Assembly: GCA_013178165.1 (NCBI GenBank)
Contig: JABLXG010000024.1
Span: forward strand, 1 to 57,418
Reading direction: 5' to 3'
DNA from: Anaerolineae bacterium
GTDB lineage: Bacteria; Chloroflexota; Anaerolineae; Aggregatilineales; Ch27
Length of the DNA: 57,418 nt
Every line of letters begins with the position of its first letter. Within the stretch, counting starts at the first letter, position 1. Of the stretch, positions 31,688 to 57,126 are shown in pieces. A program made the position numbers and the translations under genes. The notes under the pieces were generated by a model. The model did no database searches. It was given only the letters and a program-made list of their open reading frames with translations, and had not been told where the DNA came from.

Positions 31688-33643
31688 ATGGGTGATGATG
31701 CCTGGGTGATCCGTGAGGCGCAGGTCAGTCTGGAACGTCTGCTGCCACGCCTGCAGCCGGAAGTTCCAGATCGTGCTGACTGGCAGGCCTTTGAGCGGCG
31801 GCTGCGCCTGCAGTTCCCGCGACTGTTCCGGTTGTTGCTGCATCTTTACGGGTGGCGGTACGACTTCTTCTACCATCTGGAGCAAATCCTGCTGGGCGCG
31901 GCGCGGATGTATCGTGAACGCCCGGCAGAACTGAAAGCCCTGGATATTCAGCGAGAAGCTGATCCGCTGTGGTTCCAGCGCGAATCGATGATGGGCGGCG
32001 TATGCTATGTGGATCGGTTCGCCGGTACGTTACAGGGCGTCCGTGAACGTATCCCTTACTTTCAGGAACTCGGATTGACGTATCTGCACCTGATGCCTCT
32101 CTTCCTGGCTCCGGCGGAAAACAACGATGGCGGCTATGCGGTCAGCAGTTATCGGGAAGTCAACCCATCGCTGGGCAGCATGCACGATCTGCGCGCGCTG
32201 GCGACCGACCTTCGCCGTCATTGGATCAGCCTGGTGCTCGATTTTGTCTTCAACCATACCTCTAATGAGCACGAATGGGCACAGCGGGCGCTGGCCGGGG
32301 AGGAACGCTACCAGGCCTACTACCTGATGTTCGATGACCGCACGTTGCCGGATCAGTATGAGCGCCATCTGCGTGAAATCTTCCCGGAGCAGGACCCCGG
32401 CAGTTTCACCTACCTGCCGCAGATCAACAAGTGGGTGTGGACGACCTTCCGGCACTTTCAGTGGGACCTGAATTACGCCAACCCAGAAGTCTTCGGGGCG
32501 ATGCTGCAGGAGATGTTGTTCCTGGCCAACCAGGGGGTGGAAGTCCTGAGGCTGGACGCTGTGGCCTTTGTGTGGAAGCAGATGGGCACCACCTGCGAGA
32601 ATCTGCCGGAAGCGCATATGATCATCCAGGCGTTCAACGCCCTGGCTCAGGTGGTTGCGCCGGCGATGGTTTTCAAGTCGGAAGCGATTGTGCATCCCGA
32701 CTTTGTGGCTCAGTATATTGGCTGGGAGGAGTGCCCACTTTCCTACAATCCTACGCTGATGAATCTGCTCTGGGAAGCGCTGGCCACCCGTGAGGTGCGC
32801 CTGCTGCGGCATTCGATGATCAAACGCCTGCCGATCCCGGCTGATTGCGCCTGGGTGAACTATGTGCGCTGCCATGATGATATTGGCTGGAGTTTTGCCG
32901 ATGAGGATGCCGCCGAACTGGACATCAACGGCTTCGACCACCGGCAGTTTCTCAACGATTTCTACACAGGCCGGTTTCCGGGCAGTTTCGCCAGCGGACT
33001 GCCGTTCAACTACAATCCGCGCACGCGGGACATGCGGATATCGGGCATGGCGGCATCGCTGGCTGGTCTGGAGCAGGCCCTGCAACGCGCTGATCCCCTG
33101 CTGATCGAGCACGCCGTGCGGCGTATCCTGCTGATTCACAGCATTATCCTCAGCATTGGCGGCATCCCCCTGCTTTACCTGGGGGATGAACTGGGCACGA
33201 TCAACGACTATCGCTACCGGCAGAATCCGGCCATTGCCGATGATAGCCGCTGGGTACACCGGCCAGTCTTTGACTGGCAGCGGGCCGCCGAACGCACCGA
33301 TCCGGCGACATTGACCGGACGCATCTTTCAGACACTCACACGCCTGATTGCGGTGCGCAAAGTATGCCCGGCCCTTGCTAATGGCCAGACCGAGTGCTTC
33401 GATACTGGTAATCCCCATGTTTTCGGGTATGTGCGGCAGGGCAGGGTGCTGGCGCTGGCGAACTTCTCTGAGCATTCCCAGCCAGTAGCGCCAACAGTGC
33501 TGGCGCAACACTGGTCGATTCCCCGGCGCGTGGTGAACCTGGTCACTGGTCAGCTTCAGCCCATCGGCGAGATTCTGGAGCTGGAGGCGTACCAGTTTCT
33601 GTGGCTGGCTGAGGCGGATGCAACGGGTCAGCAGGTGCCATAA
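31688..33643 (+). CDS. Amylosucrase (GH13)
   Basis: A 651-residue alpha-amylase-family enzyme that builds alpha-1,4-glucan from sucrose and releases fructose. It matches the amylosucrase subfamily closely: nucleophile Asp290 in RLDAVAFVWKQMG, acid/base Glu332 in FKSEAIVHPD and transition-state Asp397 in RCHDDIGWSF. Each is shifted by exactly four from the residues I recall for the Neisseria polysaccharea enzyme (286, 328, 393). The N-terminal helical domain (about 1-90) and the LYLGDELGTINDY segment also fit. ATG 31688 gives the normal length; a longer frame upstream covers the promoter. No signal peptide, so it acts on internal sucrose. Sucrose phosphorylase or sucrose hydrolase are less likely. 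Confidence 0.93.
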   Translation: MGDDAWVIREAQVSLERLLPRLQPEVPDRADWQAFERRLRLQFPRLFRLLLHLYGWRYDFFYHLEQILLGAARMYRERPAELKALDIQREADPLWFQRESMMGGVCYVDRFAGTLQGVRERIPYFQELGLTYLHLMPLFLAPAENNDGGYAVSSYREVNPSLGSMHDLRALATDLRRHWISLVLDFVFNHTSNEHEWAQRALAGEERYQAYYLMFDDRTLPDQYERHLREIFPEQDPGSFTYLPQINKWVWTTFRHFQWDLNYANPEVFGAMLQEMLFLANQGVEVLRLDAVAFVWKQMGTTCENLPEAHMIIQAFNALAQVVAPAMVFKSEAIVHPDFVAQYIGWEECPLSYNPTLMNLLWEALATREVRLLRHSMIKRLPIPADCAWVNYVRCHDDIGWSFADEDAAELDINGFDHRQFLNDFYTGRFPGSFASGLPFNYNPRTRDMRISGMAASLAGLEQALQRADPLLIEHAVRRILLIHSIILSIGGIPLLYLGDELGTINDYRYRQNPAIADDSRWVHRPVFDWQRAAERTDPATLTGRIFQTLTRLIAVRKVCPALANGQTECFDTGNPHVFGYVRQGRVLALANFSEHSQPVAPTVLAQHWSIPRRVVNLVTGQLQPIGEILELEAYQFLWLAEADATGQQVP

Positions 33644-33655
33644 ATCGCTGACTTA

Positions 33656-33664
33656 TGGTATCAT
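33656..33664 (+). promoter_or_regulatory. Extended -10 promoter element (TGGTATCAT)
   Basis: TGG-TATCAT, identical to the element at 4193, lies 55 bases before the FHA-receiver gene and 12 bases after the amylosucrase stop. No good -35. Confidence 0.45.
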
Positions 33665-33719
33665 GCCCTCAGAACGGAGCAGTGGCCTCTACAAGGGGCC
33701 TCTACGAGGATCGCAGGGC

Positions 33720-34952
33720 ATGTCCGAACAACCGGCCCTTCCATGGATGATTGAGTTTCGCATCCCTGGGGCATCAAGTGTTGCCAAGCTCAGGGTGGAG
33801 GGGGAAGCGGTTATTGGCCGGGTTGATCGCGATAACGGTGTGTTGCCCGATCTAGACCTGACTCCCTGGGGAGCGATGGAAAAAGGGGTGGCGCCCCGCC
33901 ATGTCAGGCTCGCCGTTGTTGACGAGCAACTCATGGTGGCCGATCTGGGTTCTGGCAAACCGACTTTGCTCAACGGTGCCCTCCTGACGGCTACGCCACA
34001 CGTGTTGAATCATGGCGATGACCTGCAGCTTGGTGTACTGCACCTGCAGGTTAATGTCATTGCTTCGCCTAACCGGGGCGGCATCGTCCAGCATCAGCAG
34101 AATGTCGAACTGGTCGACGATCCGGCGCCGGGGCGCGGGCAGTCAATCCTGATTGTGGAGGATGAAGCGGAGACGGCGGAGATCTTCCGGCTGATCATGG
34201 AACGGGCCGGGTTCAAGCCACATATCTGCCGGGAAGTGGTGAGCGCCATCCGGGTTCTCAACAGTGAAGCGCCAAGCGCCATCATCCTCGATCTCATGTT
34301 GCCGGACATTCACGGGCTGGAGCTGTGCCGGTATGTGCGGCGGGATGTGGAACGGCGGGAAATCCCGATTGTGGTGGTCAGCGCCGCAGCCAAGCAGGCG
34401 ACGATCAACCAGGTCATGGAAGTCGGGGCCGATGTATTCCTGGGCAAACCGTTCAGTATGCACGAGCTGGTGCGGGTGGTAGCTTCACTGGTCAAGTGGT
34501 ACGAGTCCAAGAAGCCACTTTCTCAAACCAAGCAACTGGTTGGCACGGCGCGGCTGAAAGGCATGCCTGCTGATGTCCGGCGGGATGCGGTAGTGCTGTT
34601 CGTTGCAGGTTATCAGGAACCCATTGCGGTGGTGGTCCCCTCCCGCATTACCATTGGGCGGCGCAGCGGCAGTACATCGCGGCGCCCCCACGTAGACCTG
34701 GAACGGTACGGCGCGTTTGACGCCGGCGTTTCCCGCATTCATGCTGCGATTCACCGCGAACCGGATGGGTTCTCCATCGAGGACCTGGGCAGCAGCAATG
34801 GCACGTTCGTCAATAACGTGCGGATTGCGCCCAATCAGCGTGTCCCCCTGAAAAACGCTACCGAGGTCATCCTAGGTAGCCTGCCGGTGCGCGTGTTCTT
34901 CTTCACCGAGGACGATCTCGAAATCATCCAGGGAGCAGCCCCATTGGGATAA
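33720..34952 (+). CDS. FHA - receiver - FHA signalling protein
   Basis: A 410-residue cytoplasmic protein in three modules. Residues about 10-120 are a divergent FHA domain (AVIGRVDRDN, APRHVRL, LGSGKPTLLNG). Residues about 140-258 are a response-regulator receiver with ILIVEDE, phospho-acceptor Asp191 in LDLMLPD and Lys in LGKPF. Residues about 300-395 are a canonical FHA domain (ITIGRRSG, VSRIHAAI, LGSSNGTFVNN). FHA domains bind phosphothreonine, so this protein could join His-Asp signalling to Ser/Thr kinase signalling. There is no DNA-binding or enzyme domain, so it works by protein contacts. No histidine kinase is adjacent. ATG 33720 is favoured as it begins just before the first domain. 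Confidence 0.88.
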   Translation: MSEQPALPWMIEFRIPGASSVAKLRVEGEAVIGRVDRDNGVLPDLDLTPWGAMEKGVAPRHVRLAVVDEQLMVADLGSGKPTLLNGALLTATPHVLNHGDDLQLGVLHLQVNVIASPNRGGIVQHQQNVELVDDPAPGRGQSILIVEDEAETAEIFRLIMERAGFKPHICREVVSAIRVLNSEAPSAIILDLMLPDIHGLELCRYVRRDVERREIPIVVVSAAAKQATINQVMEVGADVFLGKPFSMHELVRVVASLVKWYESKKPLSQTKQLVGTARLKGMPADVRRDAVVLFVAGYQEPIAVVVPSRITIGRRSGSTSRRPHVDLERYGAFDAGVSRIHAAIHREPDGFSIEDLGSSNGTFVNNVRIAPNQRVPLKNATEVILGSLPVRVFFFTEDDLEIIQGAAPLG

Positions 34953-39000: not shown

Positions 39001-40410
39001 ATGGATACGGGGGAGCTACAGAGCCTGATCGATGGCGGTCGCCGGGCAGAGGTCGACTGGCTGCCAGGGGATGCGCCGGTGCAGGATATCGCGCCGATTC
39101 TGGCAGCGCTGGCCAATAGCCAGGGCGGCACGTTGCTGCTGGGCCTTGATCCGGCTACCGGTGCGCTGACAGGCGTTGCTGATGCCGAAGCGACGATCGA
39201 ACGCGTGTTGCAGGCGACGCTCGACATCACGCCGCCCCTGATCATCCCCTTGGCGGAAAAGGTAATTGCTGGCGAGCGTACCCTGGTCGCGGTGAACGTT
39301 CCGCGTGGCCTGCCCCATGTTTATGCATATGATGGCCGTTTTCTGGCCCGCCGGGAGGCCCGCAATGTCCCGCTGGATGCACGCGCCCTGCGGCAGATGC
39401 TCATTGAACGCGGCGATGTCAGCTTCGAGGAGATGGTGCCGCCGGGCGTGACGCAGGACGATCTGGACTGGGAGCAGGTGCGGGCGTATGTGGAAGGGCT
39501 GAAGAGCCTCAGCGGATTGTCTCCGGAGGAAGTTCTGCTCAAGCGGGGCTGTCTGGCCAGGGGTGAAGATGGCCGGTATCGCCCGACGAATGCCGGGATT
39601 CTGCTCTTTGGTCGGGCGCCTCAGGAGATCATCCGGGGATCGGAGATCACGGCGGCGCGTTTCGCCGGCGTTGAGATGAGCGATACTTTTATCCGGCAGG
39701 ATATTGGCGGCACGTTGCCGGCCCAGCTTCGCCGTGCCCAGACTTTCCTGGCGGATCATCTACGCAAGCAGGTGCAGATGGGCGCGACAATGGCCCGTGA
39801 CGAGCAGTATGAATACCCGCTGGAAGCGGCTCGTGAGGTGATTGTGAACGCGGTGGCCCACCGCGACTATAGCATCCGGGGGGATGGCGTGCGGCTGTAC
39901 CTCTTTGCTGACCGCATGGAAGTCACCAGCCCCGGTGGCTTGCCCGGCCCGGTGACGGTAGAGAACATCGCCGAAGAGCGATTCTCCCGCAATCCCGTGC
40001 TGGTACAGGTGCTGGCGGATATGGGGTTTATCGAGCGTCTGGGGTACGGCATTGACCGGGTCATTGCCCTGATGAAGGCCCAGAATCTGCCGGCGCCGCT
40101 GTTTGAGGAAACCGCGGGTGGGGTGCGGGTGACCCTGCGCAACAGGGCAGTTGAGAAAGCGCCACCTGCTGCGCCGCGCCCCGGCTTCGGCGGGCAGTTC
40201 CGCGGCGAAGAAATCAACCCGCGCCAGGAATACGCCCTTGATTTTCTGATCAATCAGGGCCATCCCCGTATCACCAACAAGGATCTGCAGGAACTCTGTC
40301 CGGATGTTCATGCTGAGACGCTGCGCCGCGATTTCGCCGATCTGGTGAGCAAAGGCATTCTGGTTAAGATGGGCGAAAAACGCGGCTCCTACTACGTTCT
40401 GAAGAAATGA
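39001..40410 (+). CDS. AlbA_2 / GHKL-ATPase type putative transcriptional regulator
   Basis: A 469-residue protein of the group often labelled 'ATP-dependent DNA helicase RecG-related', though it has no helicase motifs. Residues about 8-120 are an AlbA_2 (Schlafen-like) domain (AALANSQGGTLLLGLDPATG). Residues about 230-370 are a GHKL-like ATPase (AAREVIVNAVAHRDYSIRG, FADRMEVTSPGGLPGPVT, RNPVLVQVLADMGFIERLGYG). The C-terminal 80 residues look like a winged helix (NKDLQELCPDVHAETLRRDF). It probably binds DNA and ATP to regulate genes; targets are unknown. It begins 6 bases after lon and may be co-transcribed with it. Confidence 0.85.
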   Translation: MDTGELQSLIDGGRRAEVDWLPGDAPVQDIAPILAALANSQGGTLLLGLDPATGALTGVADAEATIERVLQATLDITPPLIIPLAEKVIAGERTLVAVNVPRGLPHVYAYDGRFLARREARNVPLDARALRQMLIERGDVSFEEMVPPGVTQDDLDWEQVRAYVEGLKSLSGLSPEEVLLKRGCLARGEDGRYRPTNAGILLFGRAPQEIIRGSEITAARFAGVEMSDTFIRQDIGGTLPAQLRRAQTFLADHLRKQVQMGATMARDEQYEYPLEAAREVIVNAVAHRDYSIRGDGVRLYLFADRMEVTSPGGLPGPVTVENIAEERFSRNPVLVQVLADMGFIERLGYGIDRVIALMKAQNLPAPLFEETAGGVRVTLRNRAVEKAPPAAPRPGFGGQFRGEEINPRQEYALDFLINQGHPRITNKDLQELCPDVHAETLRRDFADLVSKGILVKMGEKRGSYYVLKK

Positions 40411-48949: not shown

Positions 48950-49882
48950 CTAGAACGGGATATTGGTTTCCAGCAGGATAATCAGCGATGGCCCAAGCAG
49001 GACGATCCAGATCGAAGGGAAGATCAACAGAACCAGCGGGAACATCATCTTCACCGGCGCCTGCTGCGCCTTTTCCTGAGCGCGCTGGCGGCGCTTGACA
49101 CGCATCTGGTCGGATTGCACACGCAGAATGCGGGCCATGCTCACACCCAGTTGCTCAGCCTGGACAATGGCGGCTACAAAACTGGTCACGTCGGGGACAT
49201 CCATACTGTTAGCCATGTCGCGCAGGGCTTCGCGCCGGAGCTTACCCAGGCCAATTTCCTGCAGCACGCGCCCGAAGGCTCTTGCCAGCGGGTCATCCCA
49301 CTTTTCGTAAACCTTCGCCATTGCCGAGTCAAAGCCCAGGCCGGCTTCCACACAGATGGTCAGGAGGTCCAGGGCGTCCGGGAGTTTTCTGGTGATCATC
49401 TCCTGGCGGCGGCTGATCTGGCCTTTGAGCCAGAGCGCAGGCAGGAAGTACCCAACCAGTGCGCCACCGATCACATACAGCAGCTGGTTAGGCTGTGGCG
49501 CGGCAATGACAAAGACCACGACCGCAAGTGCCGTAAAGAGAATGGTCGCTACCAGGCGCAGGCCCAGGTAGGAAGCGGCATCCAGATTGTTGGGGTAACC
49601 GGCAAGCTCTAGCTGGCGCCGCGCGTCGTTGATCTGGCGGTCTGGCGTGAACCGTACGATGAGGTCTGCAAGTTTCCGGAATACGGGCCGCAGGATGCGA
49701 TCCTGAAAAGGCAGCGAAAGCTCAATTTCCTCCAGGGATTGTGGCAACGTGCGATCGCCGATTTCAGCCAGCCGATCCTGCAACGGATCGGAATCATCTT
49801 CGCGCATGCCGTAGTAGATCAGACCGCCGACGATGAACAGGCCCAGCAGGATCAGCGCCCCGATGCCAATTAGCTGCTCCAT
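48950..49882 (-). CDS. tadC: Tad pilus platform protein TadC-like (type II secretion F domain)
   Basis: A 310-residue inner-membrane protein. A first helix (about 4-25) is followed by a cytoplasmic stretch, two helices near 110-155, the F domain (about 165-290: RRQEMITRKLPDALDLLTIC, EAGLGFDSAMAKVYEKW, QAEQLGVSMARILRVQSDQM) and a last helix pair near the end. It forms the platform on which the TadA motor acts to extrude the pilus. GGGGAG and AAGG lie just before ATG 49882; the longer frame from 50083 overlaps a hairpin and is less likely. It follows tadB after 113 bases. Confidence 0.92.
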   Translation of the reverse strand: MEQLIGIGALILLGLFIVGGLIYYGMREDDSDPLQDRLAEIGDRTLPQSLEEIELSLPFQDRILRPVFRKLADLIVRFTPDRQINDARRQLELAGYPNNLDAASYLGLRLVATILFTALAVVVFVIAAPQPNQLLYVIGGALVGYFLPALWLKGQISRRQEMITRKLPDALDLLTICVEAGLGFDSAMAKVYEKWDDPLARAFGRVLQEIGLGKLRREALRDMANSMDVPDVTSFVAAIVQAEQLGVSMARILRVQSDQMRVKRRQRAQEKAQQAPVKMMFPLVLLIFPSIWIVLLGPSLIILLETNIPF

Positions 49883-49995: not shown

Positions 49996-50970
49996 TCAGT
50001 ACTGAATGTCCACAATGCGCTGGATGGCGGCGGTGCCCATCCCGATCAGGCCGAGACCAATGCCGATCAGCGGCCAACCGCACATCCGGTTCTCAAAGAG
50101 ACCACCCATGTAATTCGGATTGATCACCATCAGGAAGAGCGACAGTACGATCGGCAGGCCGCTGATGAACCAGCCCGTATAGCGCCCCTGGGACGTCAGG
50201 ACGCGAATCTCGCCTTTGAGCTTGATGCGCTCGCGGATGGTGTGACCGATGACATCCAGGATTTCCGCCAGGTTGCCACCTACTTCACGCTGAATATTGA
50301 CCGCCGTGACAATCAGGTCAAGGTCTTCGCTGTCCAACCGCTTGAGCATGTGATCCAGCGCATCCTCCATCGAGATGCCCAGCTGGACTTCCTGTACCAC
50401 ACGCCGGAATTCGGTCGCGGTTGGCTCTGGCGATTCCTTGGCAATGGCTTCCATGGCCTGGAGGACGCTGTAGCCGGAACGCAGACCGTTTACCCACAGG
50501 CCGATGGTATCTGGCAGTTGTTCCTCAAAGCGGATCAGGCGTGAGCGTTGCTTGCGGGCAACGTAAATGCGCGGAGCGAAGAAGCCAACCACACCGCCGA
50601 CAATCCCAAGCACCAGCCCCCACAACAGGGTCGCTACAGCAAAGAAGGCGATGGTGGAGATAATGTGGATGGCCAGGTACTCGGCGACCGTGATCTTGAG
50701 ATCCGCCTTGGAAAGGGCGATTCGCCAGTTCTTGCCAAACTCACGCTGAGTCAGCAGGCGGTCGATGGCGCGGGTGAGCTGGCTGGGTTCTTCAACGGCC
50801 GGTTTAGCTTCCGCAGCAGCCGCAGTTTCTTCCAGACCTTCGGTGAAGCGCTTCATGCGCGCGTCAAGCTCAGCCTGGCGCTGGGCGCGGATGCTGAAAA
50901 CCGCTGCGATCAGGATGACGATTGCCAGTCCACCGGCAATGGCCGCAATGAGCAAAGGATTGTCAAACAT
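49996..50970 (-). CDS. tadB: Tad pilus platform protein TadB-like (type II secretion F domain)
   Basis: A 324-residue membrane protein. Helix 1 is about 5-27; an Ala/Glu-rich cytoplasmic stretch follows; helices about 95-130; the F domain (about 145-265) shows RFEEQLPDTIGLWVNGLRSG, YSVLQAMEAIAKESPEPTA, QEVQLGISMEDALDHMLKR; and a last pair of helices lies near 270-320. TadB and TadC pair to form the platform of the Tad/Flp apparatus. It has its own extended -10 (51041-51049), 71 bases upstream, so it can be made apart from tadA. Confidence 0.92.
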   Translation of the reverse strand: MFDNPLLIAAIAGGLAIVILIAAVFSIRAQRQAELDARMKRFTEGLEETAAAAEAKPAVEEPSQLTRAIDRLLTQREFGKNWRIALSKADLKITVAEYLAIHIISTIAFFAVATLLWGLVLGIVGGVVGFFAPRIYVARKQRSRLIRFEEQLPDTIGLWVNGLRSGYSVLQAMEAIAKESPEPTATEFRRVVQEVQLGISMEDALDHMLKRLDSEDLDLIVTAVNIQREVGGNLAEILDVIGHTIRERIKLKGEIRVLTSQGRYTGWFISGLPIVLSLFLMVINPNYMGGLFENRMCGWPLIGIGLGLIGMGTAAIQRIVDIQY

Positions 50971-51096: not shown

Positions 51097-52521
51097 CTAG
51101 TAACGCTGGCCGACGCCAAACACCGAAGGCGGCAGGTGAATCCCGACGGCTTCGATGCGGTCGATGAACTTCGGGCGCAGACCGGTCGGGCGAATACGAC
51201 CGATGATCTTGCCAGCTTCGATGCCGGTCTGCTCAAACTCAAAGATGTCCGACATCACGATCACGTCGCCTTCCATCCCCTGGATTTCGGTGATCTTGAC
51301 GATCTTGCGGCTACCGTCGCGCACGCGTTCCTCATGGCAGATCAGGTTGACCGCAGAGGCGATCTGCTCGCGGATAGCGCGCACCGGCAAATCCATGCCA
51401 GCCATCAGGCACATCACCTCCAGACGGGCCAGCGTATCACGCGGGCTATTGGAGTGCAGGGTAGTCAGCGAACCGTCATGGCCGGTGTTCATGGCCTGCA
51501 GCATGTCCAGGGCTTCGCCAGAACGGCACTCCCCGACGATGATCCGGTCAGGCCGCATACGCAGGCTATTCACCACCAGGTCCCGGATGGTGATCTCGCC
51601 CTTGCCTTCGATATTGGGCGGGCGGCTTTCCAGCGTGACGACGTGGTCCTGGCGCAACTGTAGTTCAGCGGCATTCTCTATCGTGATGATCCGTTCGTCG
51701 TTGGGAATGAAGCCGGAGAGCACATTGAGCAGGGTGGTCTTGCCGGAGCCAGTACCCCCGCTGACGATGATGTTCAGACGAGCGATGACACAGGCACGCA
51801 GGAAGTCGATAATCTGCTGGGTGACCGTCCCAAAGCGGATCAGGTCATCAACCGTCAGCGGCTGCTTGGCAAACTTTCGGATGGTGATGGTCGGGCCGAT
51901 GAGCGAGATGGGACGGATCACGGCGTTGACGCGGGAGCCATCCATCAGACGGGCGTCAACGTACGGCTGGCTTTCATCAATACGACGGCCAAGCGGCGCG
52001 ACAATCCGTTCCAGGATGCGCAGGACATGCTCTTCGCTCTCAAAGGTCGCGTTGGTGTGGTAGATCTTGCCTTCGCGTTCGATGTAGATGTTCTTGGGGC
52101 CGTTGACCATGATCTCGGTGATGGTCTCGTCTGCCAGCAATGGCTCCAGTGGCCCAAGCCCCAGGATTTCGGCTTTGATCTGGTCAAAGAGCCGCTGGCG
52201 TTCAGCCCGGCTGAGAACGATATTTTCCTCCGCCAGGATGGTCTGGAACAATTCCTCCATGGTGGCGTGGATTTCCCCCTGGCGAGTCATGTCCATGGAC
52301 GGGTCGAGTTCCGCGAGCAGCTTGTTTTGGACCCTGGTCTTGATGTCCATGTAACTCTCGCGGACCGCCGCAGCACCGGTTGGGGCCGGGCGCTGGCGGA
52401 CGCGGAGTTGAGCAGCCAGCCGCGACTGTTCGTCTGTGGTTCCTCCGCCCTCACTTCCGGCGCCTTTGCCGCCGGTTCCGCCACTCTGACTACTCTTTTC
52501 AATTCGACGTAACAGAGACAC
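51097..52521 (-). CDS. tadA: Tad/Flp pilus motor ATPase TadA (CpaF)
   Basis: A 474-residue secretion ATPase of the VirB11/PilT group that powers pilus assembly from the cytoplasm. The N-terminal 55 residues are a Gly/Ser-rich linker. Then follow LAELDPSMDMTRQGEI, the N-domain (about 110-225: GLGPLEPLLADETITEIMVN) and the motor: Walker A GGTGSGKTT (255-263), an Asp-box-like region, Walker B RIIVGECRSGEALDML, and His-box TGHDGSLTTLHSNSPRD. All motor residues are intact. It follows cpaE by 53 bases and precedes tadB by 126. In Tad systems one TadA may drive both extension and retraction. Confidence 0.95.
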   Translation of the reverse strand: MSLLRRIEKSSQSGGTGGKGAGSEGGGTTDEQSRLAAQLRVRQRPAPTGAAAVRESYMDIKTRVQNKLLAELDPSMDMTRQGEIHATMEELFQTILAEENIVLSRAERQRLFDQIKAEILGLGPLEPLLADETITEIMVNGPKNIYIEREGKIYHTNATFESEEHVLRILERIVAPLGRRIDESQPYVDARLMDGSRVNAVIRPISLIGPTITIRKFAKQPLTVDDLIRFGTVTQQIIDFLRACVIARLNIIVSGGTGSGKTTLLNVLSGFIPNDERIITIENAAELQLRQDHVVTLESRPPNIEGKGEITIRDLVVNSLRMRPDRIIVGECRSGEALDMLQAMNTGHDGSLTTLHSNSPRDTLARLEVMCLMAGMDLPVRAIREQIASAVNLICHEERVRDGSRKIVKITEIQGMEGDVIVMSDIFEFEQTGIEAGKIIGRIRPTGLRPKFIDRIEAVGIHLPPSVFGVGQRY

Positions 52522-52574: not shown

Positions 52575-53891
52575 TTAATGACGGCGAAAGAGGCTGAAGC
52601 CGCTTGACTGCTTAGCTTGCACTGTATCCTGTTCGACTTCGTTCTTGCCAAGCAGATTCAGGCGCACCGCTTCGGCCAGTTCCAGCAACTCCTTGATTGG
52701 CGAGCGATCGCGCTCCTTGCTGATAGCAATCACCGGGACGCCGCGGTTGATGGCGTGCAAGACAATCCGTTCCTCCTGGGGGATTTCCGCCAGGGCTTTC
52801 ATCTTCAGGTTTTTCTCGATCAGTTCAGTGTCGATGGTAACGCGGCTGCTACGCCCACGATCCCGCTGCACCTGGTTGACTACCAGCAGCAGTTTTTCCG
52901 GCGGGAAGTTGAGTTCATCAAACAGGCGCAGGATAGCGCGTACGCTGCGAACACCGGTCAGGGTAGGGGGGCAGACGAGCAGGATGCGAGCCGCCAGGTC
53001 AAACAGTTCGGCATTGATCTCGTCGACTGCGGAACCGGTGTCGACAATGATAAAGTCGTAGGAATCAGCGATCTTGGCGATGACCTGCCTGACGGCTTCT
53101 CCCTGGGGGGGATGCGCCAGCGCACCCGGGTCAGGTTCCGGAGCAAGCAGTACGCGCAGACCGCTGTCATGGGTGACCAGCACATGCTCGACCAGTTCCA
53201 TATCCATATCCTCCACGCTGTCGCACAGATCAGCGATAGTCGTGGGGGATTTCAGATTCAGGAAGACGCCGACATCGCCAAAATGTGCTTTGGCGTCCAC
53301 GATCAGAACCTTGGTGTCTTCCCGCATCAACCCTGCCGCCAGATTGGTGGCGATCATCGTGCAACCGGCGCCGCCTTTGGGGCTGTAGACGACCACGATA
53401 TAGCCAAGACGCTTATCGCCAACCCGCAGGCCCTTGCCCGCCGTAGCGACGCGTTCACCCCCTACGGCGGGCATGACCGGCAGCGTGGCAATCATCGTCT
53501 TCTTGCGCTGGTAGACACTGCGCAGTGTGCTGTAAAGCTCATCTCCCGAAACGGGCTTGGTCAGGAAGTACTGGGCTCCGGCCAGCATGGCCTTACGAAG
53601 GTAGTCCGACTCGCTTTGGACGGAGAGCATCACCACAGCGGCGGTAGGCACCGCTGTGGCGATCTTCTCTGTGGCTGAGATACCGTCCATATCGGGCATG
53701 TTGATGTCCATCAGGATGATGTTGGGCTGAGTTTCCTGGGCCAGTTCCAGCGCCTCAAGCCCTGTGCCGGCGGTGCCAACCACCTCGATGTCCGGCTCGA
53801 ACATCAACAGCTTCTTGATTTGCTCGCGGGTCTCAGCGTTATCGTCCACGATGAGCACGCGGATTTTCGCTTCAGGGCCACTGCCAGTCAT
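52575..53891 (-). CDS. cpaE: CpaE/TadZ-like pilus-positioning ATPase with complete receiver domain
   Basis: A 438-residue cytoplasmic protein. Residues 10-125 are a receiver with all phosphorylation residues: Asp16-Asp17, acceptor Asp62 (ILMDINMPDMDG), Ser90 and Lys112 (LTKPVS). Residues about 163-420 are a MinD/ParA-type ATPase whose P-loop is PKGGAGCT (171-178): the first Lys of the deviant Walker A is present, but the usual GKT lysine is Cys. TadZ proteins mark the site of pilus assembly. Typical TadZ receivers are degenerate; this one looks able to be phosphorylated, and a two-component pair lies just upstream. ATG at 53891. It sits between cpaB and tadA. Confidence 0.92.
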   Translation of the reverse strand: MTGSGPEAKIRVLIVDDNAETREQIKKLLMFEPDIEVVGTAGTGLEALELAQETQPNIILMDINMPDMDGISATEKIATAVPTAAVVMLSVQSESDYLRKAMLAGAQYFLTKPVSGDELYSTLRSVYQRKKTMIATLPVMPAVGGERVATAGKGLRVGDKRLGYIVVVYSPKGGAGCTMIATNLAAGLMREDTKVLIVDAKAHFGDVGVFLNLKSPTTIADLCDSVEDMDMELVEHVLVTHDSGLRVLLAPEPDPGALAHPPQGEAVRQVIAKIADSYDFIIVDTGSAVDEINAELFDLAARILLVCPPTLTGVRSVRAILRLFDELNFPPEKLLLVVNQVQRDRGRSSRVTIDTELIEKNLKMKALAEIPQEERIVLHAINRGVPVIAISKERDRSPIKELLELAEAVRLNLLGKNEVEQDTVQAKQSSGFSLFRRH

Positions 53892-53943
53892 AGCTTATAT
53901 CCTGTACATCCCGTCCGGTTACGAACTGCTCAGGCCATGGTTG

Positions 53944-55104
53944 TTACTCGGTTGTCGATGTGGTTGTGGTGGTATCCTCCCGCAGACGGATTTCCTGGAA
54001 AGCGATCAGCTGGCGGATGCTGCGCAGGGCCGGCTCCAGGGCGTAGGGCAGGCGGTTAGGCGCGCTGATGTTGTAGTTGCTCATGATGTACTCCAGCGAA
54101 ACCGCCTGGGTGGGCACCTGGGAGATATCGGTTGCCGACCGGAGAGCCAGGGTGATCGGGATACGGGAATCGATCGCCCACACCAGCACAACGGCATCCT
54201 GTGGCGAAACGGCCAGGGTGATGATATCCGGCGGCGGCTTGGGGGTGGGGACTGAAGGCGGACGTTCAGCGGCCTGCGCTTCAGCGCCTTCCGCCGGCAC
54301 GGCGGTCGGGGTGGGCAGCGGGGTGGGGGTAGCGCCGATGTAGTTGCCTTCGATGGGGAAGTCCCCGACACGTAGCACCCAGGCGCTCTGGATCGTGCGC
54401 TGGGTGACCAGGCGCGGACGCTGCTGTTCGGACGGGCTGACAATAACCGGCGCACCGCCGATGCCGACATCAAGGCGGCCAGGCACGCCCTGCCCGATAG
54501 CGATATTGCCCGCTTCATCGAAGGTTACCAGGAAGTTGTTGTTGGGGAACAACGACTGGAACTCTTCGTCGACATCCACGAACAGCATTGACAGAATGAC
54601 GTCCACATAATCGCCTTCGCGGATGGCATAGGCCACGCCGGTCAGGCGGTCCATCGGGACGGAGACGGCGACCAGACCCGGCGGCATGATGGCGGCGGCG
54701 TCAGACCCCACCCGGCCACGCTCCGCCAGTTCGCGCAGGTTATCCACCAGCATGGTCGAGAGCACAGGCGATTCGCGTGGAATATCGGTGCGGGCGATCT
54801 TGCCGATCACGTCATCCAGACTCTGCAGGGCGTTGAACGGGGCGGCTTCCGCCGGCCAGCGCCGGAGTTCCACAGCGTTTTCTGCCGGGATACGGATACC
54901 GCGCGGGAGTTCCTGGACGGCAATGACAATTTCGACGAAGGGGATTGGCGTGGCTGTCGGGATAACTTCTACCTGGCGCTCAGCCTCGCCTGCGCTCGGC
55001 GTGGTAGGAACCCCGGAAAAGCGAGGGAGCAACAGCACGACGGCGACCACGCCCAGGAGGATGATCAGAACTAACAGAAGTAATAAGCGGCCACGTCCGC
55101 GCAT
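53944..55104 (-). CDS. cpaB: Flp pilus assembly protein CpaB/RcpC-like
   Basis: A 386-residue protein with one N-terminal membrane helix (about 6-27) and an outer SAF-type domain. Marks of the family: VEIVIAVQELPRGIRIPAENAVELR, where the helix-break starts the SAF fold, then VLSTMLVDNLRELAERG and VSVPMDRLTGVAYAIREGDYVDV, each seen in RcpC/CpaB proteins. A Pro/Ala linker (about 265-295) precedes a C-terminal domain. In two-membrane bacteria it works with the secretin CpaC; no secretin gene follows here, as expected for a one-membrane cell. ATG 55104 has GGAGGG 5-10 bases upstream, ruling out the 55134 start. It is the first gene of the pilus operon, behind a strong promoter. Confidence 0.88.
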   Translation of the reverse strand: MRGRGRLLLLLVLIILLGVVAVVLLLPRFSGVPTTPSAGEAERQVEVIPTATPIPFVEIVIAVQELPRGIRIPAENAVELRRWPAEAAPFNALQSLDDVIGKIARTDIPRESPVLSTMLVDNLRELAERGRVGSDAAAIMPPGLVAVSVPMDRLTGVAYAIREGDYVDVILSMLFVDVDEEFQSLFPNNNFLVTFDEAGNIAIGQGVPGRLDVGIGGAPVIVSPSEQQRPRLVTQRTIQSAWVLRVGDFPIEGNYIGATPTPLPTPTAVPAEGAEAQAAERPPSVPTPKPPPDIITLAVSPQDAVVLVWAIDSRIPITLALRSATDISQVPTQAVSLEYIMSNYNISAPNRLPYALEPALRSIRQLIAFQEIRLREDTTTTTSTTE

Positions 55105-55136
55105 AGGACCCTCCACTCCTGATAGGTACTGCACTT

Positions 55137-55164
55137 AGTGTATTCGTTCAGAAGTAAATGTCAA
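55137..55164 (-). promoter_or_regulatory. Promoter of the Tad/Flp pilus operon
   Basis: On the minus strand a perfect TTGACA (55164-55159), a 16-base spacer and TACACT (55142-55137). The start of transcription would be near 55130, about 26 bases before the cpaB ATG. Confidence 0.65.
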
Positions 55165-55181
55165 ACGGGCTGATAGTCCTA

Positions 55182-55208
55182 CTGATCCCCGGCAATGCCG
55201 GCAATCAG
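55182..55208 (-). terminator. Terminator-like hairpin after the sensor kinase
   Basis: CTGAT (55182-55186)/ATCAG (55204-55208) and CCGGCA (55189-55194)/TGCCGG (55196-55201) form a nested hairpin between the kinase stop and the pilus promoter. No T-run. Confidence 0.45.
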
Positions 55209-55263
55209 CCCTGTTTTCGAACACGTAATGGAGTGGATTCCCGGTGTGGCCAACCAACCCAGA

Positions 55264-56355
55264 TTATGAGGCCGGGAGCACCGGATTACCGGCGGGAATG
55301 CGGACGGTGATCTTGCTGCCGCGGCCTTCTTCGCTTTCAAGGCGCATGGCCCCCCCGATCAACTCTACCCGCTCCCGCAGGGTCTTCAGGCTGGCTGCCT
55401 TGCTTTCTGGCACAGTAGTGTCTTCGCCGCTCAGGACGGTATCCGGGTTGAAGCCCTGGCCGTTATCCTCGACGATGGCGGAAACAAAGTCCATGCCCAT
55501 ATCCAGCGTGATAGTCACCTGGGTGGCATGGGAATGCTCGCGGGCATTGGACAAAAGCTCCTGGATGGAGCGGAACAGGATGACTTCGCGGTGTTGCTCT
55601 AGGCGGCGTTCATCGCCCAGAATATGCAAGGTGGTGCGGATGCCGCTCTTTTCGTTGTAGTTGTCGACATAGCGGCGGAGGGTCGGGATCAGGCCCAGGT
55701 CATCCAGCATCATCGGGCGCAGATCGAAGATAAACTCGCGGACCTTCTGAAAGGTACTGCTGGCGACTGCCTTGAGGTTATTCAATTCTTCCGCCGCCCG
55801 GTCAGGATCGCGGTCAAAAAGGCGCTGGCAGATTTCGGCCTGCAGGATGAAATTGGTCAGGGATTGTGCCGGGCCATCGTGCATTTGTCGGGCCAGACGC
55901 TTGCGCTCGTTTTCCTGCGCCTCAATGATGCGGATGATGTTCACCGCAGCCGGTGACATTTCAACGGCGGCGGTGTTGCTCTGAAAGGCTGAAGGGGCCA
56001 GACCTTCGACTTCCGCCAGTACCCTGGAGACGATGTCCGCCATCTGGCGGTACTGGTTCTGGTCGCTCTGCAGCTTTTCCAGGTTGCCCCGCATGGTCAA
56101 CAGACGACTGCGTGTATCGATCGCTTCGGTGTAGGCGACGCGGATATCCGGGCGCGGCACGCTATCGAAATTGGCTTCGATCTGGTGCAGCCGGTTGGTG
56201 ACCATGGCATTCTTTTGCTGCAAACGCTCGACTTCGTTGTGTGTTTGCTGAATGAGCGCGTCCAGCTCTTTGAGCTGGTTGTTGATGCGGTTGAATTCAT
56301 CATGCAGCGTTGACAGCAGTTGTTCACGGGGAGATTCAGAAGTCAGTTCAGACAT
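55264..56355 (-). CDS. Cytoplasmic DegS/NarL-type sensor histidine kinase
   Basis: A 363-residue kinase without membrane helices. Residues about 15-105 are a long coiled coil. The HisKA_3 domain has His159 in RKRLARQMHDGPAQSLTNFI; the HATPase domain shows QELLSNAREHSHATQ, VEDNGQGFNP and LRERVELIGGAMRLESEEGR. This matches the DegS type, which senses internal signals and phosphorylates a LuxR-type regulator. That regulator is encoded directly upstream (56395-57126, 39 bases away), so the two form one unit. The pilus operon follows downstream. The last residues (GNPVLPAS) are short. The signal is unknown. Confidence 0.94.
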   Translation of the reverse strand: MSELTSESPREQLLSTLHDEFNRINNQLKELDALIQQTHNEVERLQQKNAMVTNRLHQIEANFDSVPRPDIRVAYTEAIDTRSRLLTMRGNLEKLQSDQNQYRQMADIVSRVLAEVEGLAPSAFQSNTAAVEMSPAAVNIIRIIEAQENERKRLARQMHDGPAQSLTNFILQAEICQRLFDRDPDRAAEELNNLKAVASSTFQKVREFIFDLRPMMLDDLGLIPTLRRYVDNYNEKSGIRTTLHILGDERRLEQHREVILFRSIQELLSNAREHSHATQVTITLDMGMDFVSAIVEDNGQGFNPDTVLSGEDTTVPESKAASLKTLRERVELIGGAMRLESEEGRGSKITVRIPAGNPVLPAS

Positions 56356-56394
56356 GGCCCTCTTCCGCCCACAGCGCCTGCAGAGCAGACTCGC

Positions 56395-57126
56395 TCAATC
56401 GTCAGTTTCGGACAAGGTGTCCTGCATACGCACCCAGCCGCGGCGCAGCGCATACACTGCTGCCTGAGTACGATCTTCAACGTCCAGCTTCTTGAGGATG
56501 GCGGTCATGTGGTTCTTGACCGTCTGATGGCTGATACCCAGCGCCAGCGCGATCTGCTTGTTGCTCATGCCCCGCGTGACAAACTGCAGAATCTCCATTT
56601 CGCGCGGGCTGAGCGGCACAAAATGCTCGCCGGGGTCAACTATGTACGGGCCGGTCGCGGCTTCAACGCCGGCGTCCAGCCAGGCGCGCAGGTTGGGTTC
56701 ATCGAAGAGCTGGTCGCCGATGACGTAGAATCCCTGGACGACCTGCCGGACAACTTCCACCAGGCGGGCAGGCTCCACATCTTTTGAGTAGTAAGCTGAC
56801 GCCCCGGCACGCATCGCGTGGAGCACCTGCTCCTGATCGTGGTACGCGGTCAGCATGATGACGGCGCAATTGATCCGCTCGGCCTTGAGCTGGCGGGTGA
56901 CCTGCAGACCATTCATAGAAGGGATGTTGATGTCAATGACCAGCACGTTAGGCTTCAGCTGGCGCACCAACTGGAGCGCCTTTTCGCCGTCTGCTTTTTC
57001 GCCAATAACCTCAATATCATCTTCCAGCGAAAATACTTTGGACAGCCCTTCACGGAAAAGGGGGTGGTCGTCAACAATCAGTACCGTGATTCTGTCCAGG
57101 TCGTCTTCCGGATTCTGCATCGCCAT
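56395..57126 (-). CDS. LuxR/NarL family response regulator
   Basis: A 243-residue regulator. Receiver (about 12-130): Asp19-Asp20 in VLIVDDHP, acceptor Asp65 in LVIDINIPS, Thr and Lys in the later strands (VIMLTAYHD, YYSKDVEPARL). A linker of about 40 residues leads to the LuxR-type helix-turn-helix (about 178-240) with LSPREMEILQFVTRGMSNKQ and ALGISHQTVKNHMTAILKKL. GAGGA is 7-11 bases before ATG 57126, so the longer frame from 57249 is rejected. It is paired with the kinase downstream. The neighbouring pilus operon is the natural candidate target, but no binding site can be named. Confidence 0.95.
   Translation of the reverse strand: MAMQNPEDDLDRITVLIVDDHPLFREGLSKVFSLEDDIEVIGEKADGEKALQLVRQLKPNVLVIDINIPSMNGLQVTRQLKAERINCAVIMLTAYHDQEQVLHAMRAGASAYYSKDVEPARLVEVVRQVVQGFYVIGDQLFDEPNLRAWLDAGVEAATGPYIVDPGEHFVPLSPREMEILQFVTRGMSNKQIALALGISHQTVKNHMTAILKKLDVEDRTQAAVYALRRGWVRMQDTLSETDD

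Follow-up and report, generated by a model that had tools for sequence, protein, structure and literature searches.

The window analysed here is the entire contig C24 (57,418 bases) of an Anaerolineae genome totalling 4.19 Mb. Its minus strand carries, in order, genes for a LuxR regulator and a DegS-like histidine kinase, followed by cpaB, cpaE, cpaF, tadB and tadC. We propose, at a probability of roughly 0.55, that these seven genes form a sensory Tad-pilus module, in which the kinase sets the receivers of both the LuxR regulator and CpaE, the presumed pilus-positioning ATPase, and one signal governs both the amount of machinery and its assembly.

CpaE combines an N-terminal receiver fold with a MinD/ParA-like ATPase, as is evident from its domains, its structure model and its fold matches, and is encoded with CpaF/TadA, TadB, TadC and CpaB/RcpC, the gene context of a TadZ/CpaE protein. 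The receiver has the canonical active-site set (DD, D, S/T, K), consisting of Asp16, Asp17, Asp62, Ser90 and Lys112, together with Phe109. The P-loop, KGGAGCT at residues 172–178, has its first lysine, and the second is replaced. The five active-site residues and the P-loop agree exactly with those named in an earlier interpretation of this DNA (the sequence-only reading). The structure model, built from 52 sequences with a mean predicted local distance difference test (pLDDT) score of 89.6, consists of the receiver, a low-confidence linker (residues 139–159) and a MinD-like domain with a long terminal helix. The closest solved structures are 3ea0 and the TadZ structure 3fkq, which we take to be that of Eubacterium rectale and which was matched over 393 columns; MinD is a further fold match.

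The CpaE receiver is of the NarL/LuxR class, the same as the receiver of the operon regulator. Its model superposes onto DesR of the DesK–DesR complex (5iuk) at 1.3 Å over 122 columns. A tree of 73 receivers was built from 20 CpaE proteins, 12 operon regulators, and 4 other LuxR-type and 37 other receivers of the window genome, for which 40 regions were fetched, covering part of its 70 receiver matches. CpaE and the LuxR-type receivers form one clade of 36 rows with a Shimodaira–Hasegawa-like approximate likelihood ratio test (SH-aLRT) support of 99, and the 37 other receivers lie outside it. Kinases of the HisKA_3 type usually serve NarL-class receivers.

We suggest the following mechanism. 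A soluble DegS-type kinase would determine whether two receivers of the same class, those of the LuxR regulator and CpaE, are phosphorylated. The regulator would probably act at a conserved promoter before cpaB, and the CpaE receiver would switch either how CpaE associates with itself or how it contacts the motor protein CpaF. A single signal could in this way set the quantity of pilus machinery as well as whether and where assembly happens. What we infer is that phosphotransfer takes place, whether it adds or removes phosphate, and what it does to the pilus. According to an excerpt of PMC13170226, the motor of Caulobacter is encircled by CpaE dimers, which are believed to make contact via their receivers; by inference, a phospho-switch at these contacts would be a natural route to act on assembly. 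Structural work on TadZ (Xu 2012) is cited in that excerpt and in one of PMC11217815, while the portion of PMC10746521 consulted concerns CpaE abundance only.

The features of the locus are as follows.

56395..57126, minus strand: LuxR/NarL response regulator; PF00072 and PF00196 (GerE), complete receiver set DD/D/T/K, start ATG 57126
55264..56355, minus strand: DegS-like histidine kinase; PF07730 (HisKA_3), PF02518 (HATPase_c), PF05384 (DegS)
55137..55181, minus strand: conserved candidate promoter of the pilus genes; consensus scan and conservation across order-level intergenic regions
53944..55104, minus strand: cpaB (RcpC/SAF); PF16976, PF08666, TIGR03177 above cut-off
52575..53891, minus strand: cpaE/tadZ; Response_reg at residues 12–123, MinD/ParA-like ATPase at residues 165–395
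51097..52521, minus strand: cpaF/tadA motor ATPase; PF00437, TIGR03819 at 346 bits, slightly below the cut-off of 373
49996..50970, minus strand: tadB platform protein; PF00482 and place in the operon
48950..49882, minus strand: tadC platform protein; PF00482 and place in the operon, start ATG 49882

The top NCBIfam match of the regulator is the NarL model, with a score under the model cut-off. The sequence-only reading placed the pair just upstream of cpaE; the shared strand stands, but the two are not immediately adjacent, as cpaB intervenes and the pair is one gene away.

Conservation of the CpaE receiver

With the ATPase part alone as query, CpaE was found in 159 of 301 Chloroflexota genomes. 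We inspected 120 CpaE regions, 40 from relatives within the order and 80 hand-picked from the ranked list at about one per genus. The receiver is intact in 108 of the 120 genes (106 DDDSK and 2 DDDTK), and Asp62 is retained in 116. An intact receiver is therefore the rule of the phylum and no peculiarity of the window genome, and the notion of a special retention, put forward in the sequence-only reading, has to be given up. Among the 108 intact-receiver proteins, the second P-loop lysine is present in 31, both lysines are present in 21 and both are lost in 23. With just 21 keeping both lysines, conservation is stronger in the receiver than in the signature of the ATPase.

Receiver integrity is related to the presence of the pair, which is counted where a LuxR regulator occurs together with a kinase of the HisKA_3 type on the same strand within 7 kb upstream of cpaE. 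With the pair upstream, the receiver is intact in 55 of 55 loci, versus 32 of 41 loci where the pair is absent and contig-edge loci are excluded (Fisher p = 2.7e-4, a value that ignores phylogeny). It is intact in 5/5 kinase-only loci, 0/1 regulator-only locus and 16/18 of the contig-edge loci that were set aside. Degenerate receivers often lose several residues together (e.g. SKDLY and TVDVR), mostly in genomes without the kinase. Such joint losses, together with the retention of all five active-site residues in most of the genes inspected, make it improbable that the receiver is a structural dimerisation module whose residues are kept for the fold or for metal binding and not for phosphorylation.

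Related proteins occur elsewhere. A second CpaE-like gene with an intact receiver and no adjacent cpaF (L137–L142, family f8) encodes a stand-alone receiver–MinD protein, and its fully flanked copies adjoin no same-strand kinase pair. In family f22 (L180, L184, L195 and L197), the receivers encoded by cpaE are intact, and cpaF was not detected in the sequence fetched around these genes; L180, L184 and L197 have further cpaE copies on the opposite strand. The window genome encodes another protein with a receiver and a MinD-like domain (L358, G000:C48:22140-23204), 29% identical to CpaE, and similar-scoring matches of this type (27–32%) recur through the order.

The kinase and its proposed partners

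A kinase search of GTDB genomes returned 435 relatives, the nearest named ones being from Chloroflexi and Aggregatilineales metagenome-assembled genomes, and the locus figures in this paragraph refer to the best 80 loci. The full order from regulator to tadC is present in 43 of the 80, and tad linkage is seen at 49 of the 61 kinase loci with over 3 kb of downstream sequence. A pair not conserved beside the pilus operon would have refuted the sequence-only reading, and this outcome was not seen. Of the 73 kinase loci with upstream room, 67 have a LuxR regulator no further than 1.5 kb upstream. One full seven-gene cluster of the Chloroflexota type bears a cyanobacterial title (L063, Pleurocapsa minor GSE-CHR-MK-17-07R), and the assembly is probably mislabelled or mixed.

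Since this set had been chosen by kinase similarity, a reverse search from CpaE was added. A kinase ortholog (E ≤ 1e-44) is found in 93 of the 301 Chloroflexota genomes, and CpaE is present in all 93 (Fisher p = 2e-34, with phylogeny not accounted for). When 18 genomes without CpaE were searched with a profile, none of the matches listed started within its first 60 positions. Genomes in which cpaE lacks the neighbouring pair usually have one full-length kinase ortholog elsewhere, scoring far above the next match. The window's own class is represented by 27 genomes with kinase and CpaE, 2 with CpaE only, 12 with neither and 0 with the kinase alone. The two CpaE-only genomes, G200 and G231, have destroyed receivers; within the same Anaerolineae family (f12), G136 and G245 keep both kinase and receiver.

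The relationship between kinase and receiver integrity was followed in 100 genomes, a non-random set that covers all but some 59 of the 159 genomes with CpaE. For this purpose 26 extra genomes (one previously seen) were inspected, mostly picked since no kinase had been found in them, to capture weak CpaE genes. The set comprises 74 genomes with the kinase and an intact receiver, 17 with no kinase and a degenerate receiver, 6 with the kinase and a degenerate receiver, and 3 with no kinase and an intact receiver. The kinase is thus found in 74/77 intact-receiver genomes and missing in 17/23 genomes without an intact receiver, and the co-occurrence check suggested by the sequence-only reading comes out in its favour. 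Four of the six degenerate receivers that accompany a kinase read DDD[A/G]K and belong to a single family.

The linkage could be a case of hitch-hiking, an old gene order of one phylum without functional meaning. The sampled genomes do share ancestry, and independent changes are few. However, kinase and CpaE also co-occur when unlinked, and four families that we take to be Chloroflexia (f29, f39, f64 and f67) have a lone kinase, a lone related regulator elsewhere and an intact CpaE, a trio preserved although it is dispersed. Of 16 orphan kinase loci scanned, 12 have no receiver within 1.5 kb. We consider hitch-hiking very improbable.

A more serious alternative, though in our judgement still unlikely, is that the kinase serves the LuxR regulator only, controlling pilus expression, and that CpaE is phosphorylated by another kinase or by acetyl phosphate. 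The proximity of the regulator to most kinase loci and the conserved promoter before cpaB agree with such an arrangement, and local pairs regulating tad genes are known (excerpts of PMC3510237 and PMC3767616). It would also accommodate the 25 non-edge tad loci, with cpaF close by, that have an intact CpaE receiver and no adjacent pair. On the other hand, it does not readily explain why receiver integrity tracks the kinase, nor the five loci (L170, L176, L178, L188 and L227) at which no LuxR regulator accompanies the kinase. There the kinase lies upstream of cpaE, and the CpaE receiver is the sole receiver found in 16.7 kb. A regulator ortholog search at E ≤ 1e-38 found none in four of the five genomes concerned (G053, G079, G258 and G271), and the match in the fifth, G223, has an E-value of 9e-39.

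Two apparent cases of CpaE as an exclusive partner were set aside. For the orphan kinase of the Chloroflexia-like families, this assignment is weakened by the unpaired LuxR regulator, which is about 43–47% identical to that of the window. In three Thermoflexales loci (L078, L083 and L093), the weak "CpaE" match following the kinase is a different single-receiver protein and not CpaE.

The proposal that the kinase sets both receivers has several observations to contend with. Besides the 25 loci mentioned above, three genomes (G212, G153 and G306) have intact receivers with no full-length kinase found. The tree of the CpaE ATPase part offers about five supported independent pairs, of which 3.7 run in the expected direction when the kinase is called broadly and 4.8 when it is called strictly, and almost none in the opposite one; the median p value of the sign test is 0.125 (broad) or 0.0625 (strict). 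The association between kinase and receiver integrity is consistent, and phylogenetically thin, and the phylogeny-aware test of it is underpowered. Covariation between kinase and receiver (mutual information with average-product correction, 103 trios) had no usable signal, and no conclusion is drawn from it because the effective number was 28 and the positive control, the kinase with the LuxR regulator, missed the expected contact surface. At L209 (G067), the kinase adjoining an intact CpaE has an aspartate in place of the phosphorylatable histidine. Finally, 21 of the 28 proximal kinases from the order have eroded ATP-binding motifs.

This last point bears on the mechanism. The window protein has the H, N and G1 boxes of a DegS/HisKA_3 kinase, which many of its relatives lack: the H box reads H159-D160-G-P-A-Q164, Asn270, Asp297, Gly299 and Gly301 are kept, and the G2 glycine is Ser322. 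It has no 19-residue stretch with a mean hydropathy above 1.15, hence no membrane-like segment, and is taken to be soluble. Among the order-level proximal kinases (the short or truncated kinases of L146, L212 and L217 are excluded from residue counts), His159 is present in 28/28; it is followed by D160-x-x-x-Q164 in 25 of them and by D-x-x-x-H in the other 3. In the HisKA_3 class, D-x-x-x-Q/H beside this residue is the phosphatase motif, as described for NarX. All four ATP-site residues (Asn270, Asp297, Gly299 and Gly301) are kept in only 7 of the 28, the N-box asparagine being lost in 16 and the G1 aspartate in 11. In phylum-level clusters of the order kinase–regulator–kinase, all four residues are kept by the distal kinase in 14/14, and the proximal kinase is eroded in 8 of those clusters; unlinked kinases keep all four in 26/26. 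Eroded order-level kinases have identities of 78% in the dimerisation and histidine phosphotransfer (DHp) domain and 45% in the ATP lobe, versus 79% and 52% for those that keep the four residues, so the ATP lobe is just moderately more diverged. The proximal kinases of L158 and L212 (a short copy) have lost the histidine and kept the aspartate and glutamine.

The sequence-only reading suggested that the kinase might phosphorylate both receivers. As a general mechanism this does not hold, because the ATP motifs are so often eroded while HDGPAQ/H is retained; the window kinase does keep its four ATP-site residues. The loci with eroded kinases would therefore require another phosphoryl source. 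The motifs suggest that selection favours dephosphorylation of the receiver or phosphotransfer and that many relatives can do without autophosphorylation, and the conserved activity of the kinase may be that of a phosphatase or phosphotransfer protein. Since H-D-x-x-x-Q/H, and not the ATP site, is best conserved, this role may be older and more general than phosphorylation; the window kinase looks capable of both phosphorylation and dephosphorylation or phosphotransfer. More tentatively, it is possible that the conserved client of the kinase is CpaE and not the transcription factor. Some lineages would then have a two-component system with the pilus machine as its only output, and in many Anaerolineae the kinase would have become a phosphatase or phosphotransfer protein without ATP binding.

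The promoter before cpaB and the remainder of the window

The candidate promoter between the kinase gene and cpaB contains, on the minus strand, TAGGAC at 55181–55176, a -35 box TTGACA at 55164–55159 and a -10 box TACACT at 55142–55137. The start ATG 55104 of cpaB, located 3′ of the -10 box, is favoured over a GTG further upstream. TACACT occurs in the kinase–cpaB intergenic region of 24/29 order-level loci, or 24 of all 40 examined where 2.0 would be expected from shuffling, and in 0/11 loci outside the order. It is preceded by a GTTTGAC- or GTTTGCG-like -35 box and mostly also by a TAGGAC...GGCC element. The conserved promoter gives the pilus genes a predicted start of their own, open to control by the regulator. 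A palindrome at 55182–55208, upstream of cpaB, was considered as the operator and dropped, as the same scan found none in 13 relatives; TAGGAC is the better conserved operator candidate.

Elsewhere in the genome, TadE-like genes are found on contig C1 and one prepilin peptidase on C6. The window itself encodes, on the plus strand, a protein whose receiver is flanked by FHA-type domains (33618–34952; two FHA stretches and a Yop-YscD-like match) and a Schlafen AlbA_2-type protein with a RecG-C-like HATPase_c_4 domain (39001–40410), whose gene adjoins a Lon protease gene.

Comparison with known systems

The cues for the timing and place of Tad pilus assembly are poorly known, and assembly control becomes directly testable with a CpaE whose receiver looks live and for which a kinase partner can be named. 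If the proposal is correct, two-component signalling would end on a machine and not on DNA, and a kinase would be seen drifting to a phosphatase beside its own target. No kinase acting on CpaE/TadZ is described in the titles and abstract openings that searches of one open-licence literature library listed. About a third of Chloroflexota genomes have a Tad pilus without secretin, according to an excerpt of PMC12488501.

The TadZ/CpaE proteins of E. rectale and Caulobacter share with that of the window the combination of a receiver and a MinD/ParA-like ATPase with a deviant Walker A motif, encoded beside the CpaF motor and platform genes. The receiver of E. rectale TadZ is atypical (excerpt of PMC13170226), whereas that of the window is canonical and of the NarL class. 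Many relatives of the window CpaE have lost P-loop lysines instead.

By role, the regulator–kinase pair can be likened to PprA–PprB of Pseudomonas aeruginosa and ECA0785–ECA0786 of Pectobacterium, tad-locus pairs that activate tad transcription; the excerpts of PMC3510237 and PMC3767616 mention no kinase action on TadZ. PprB is of the NarL/LuxR type, like the window regulator, whereas the regulator of Pectobacterium carries an OmpR domain. The window kinase, in turn, shares a HisKA_3 domain with HD-x-x-x-Q with DegS, LiaS, NarX and DesK, and differs from them in being tied to a pilus ATPase and in the eroded ATP lobe of many of its relatives.

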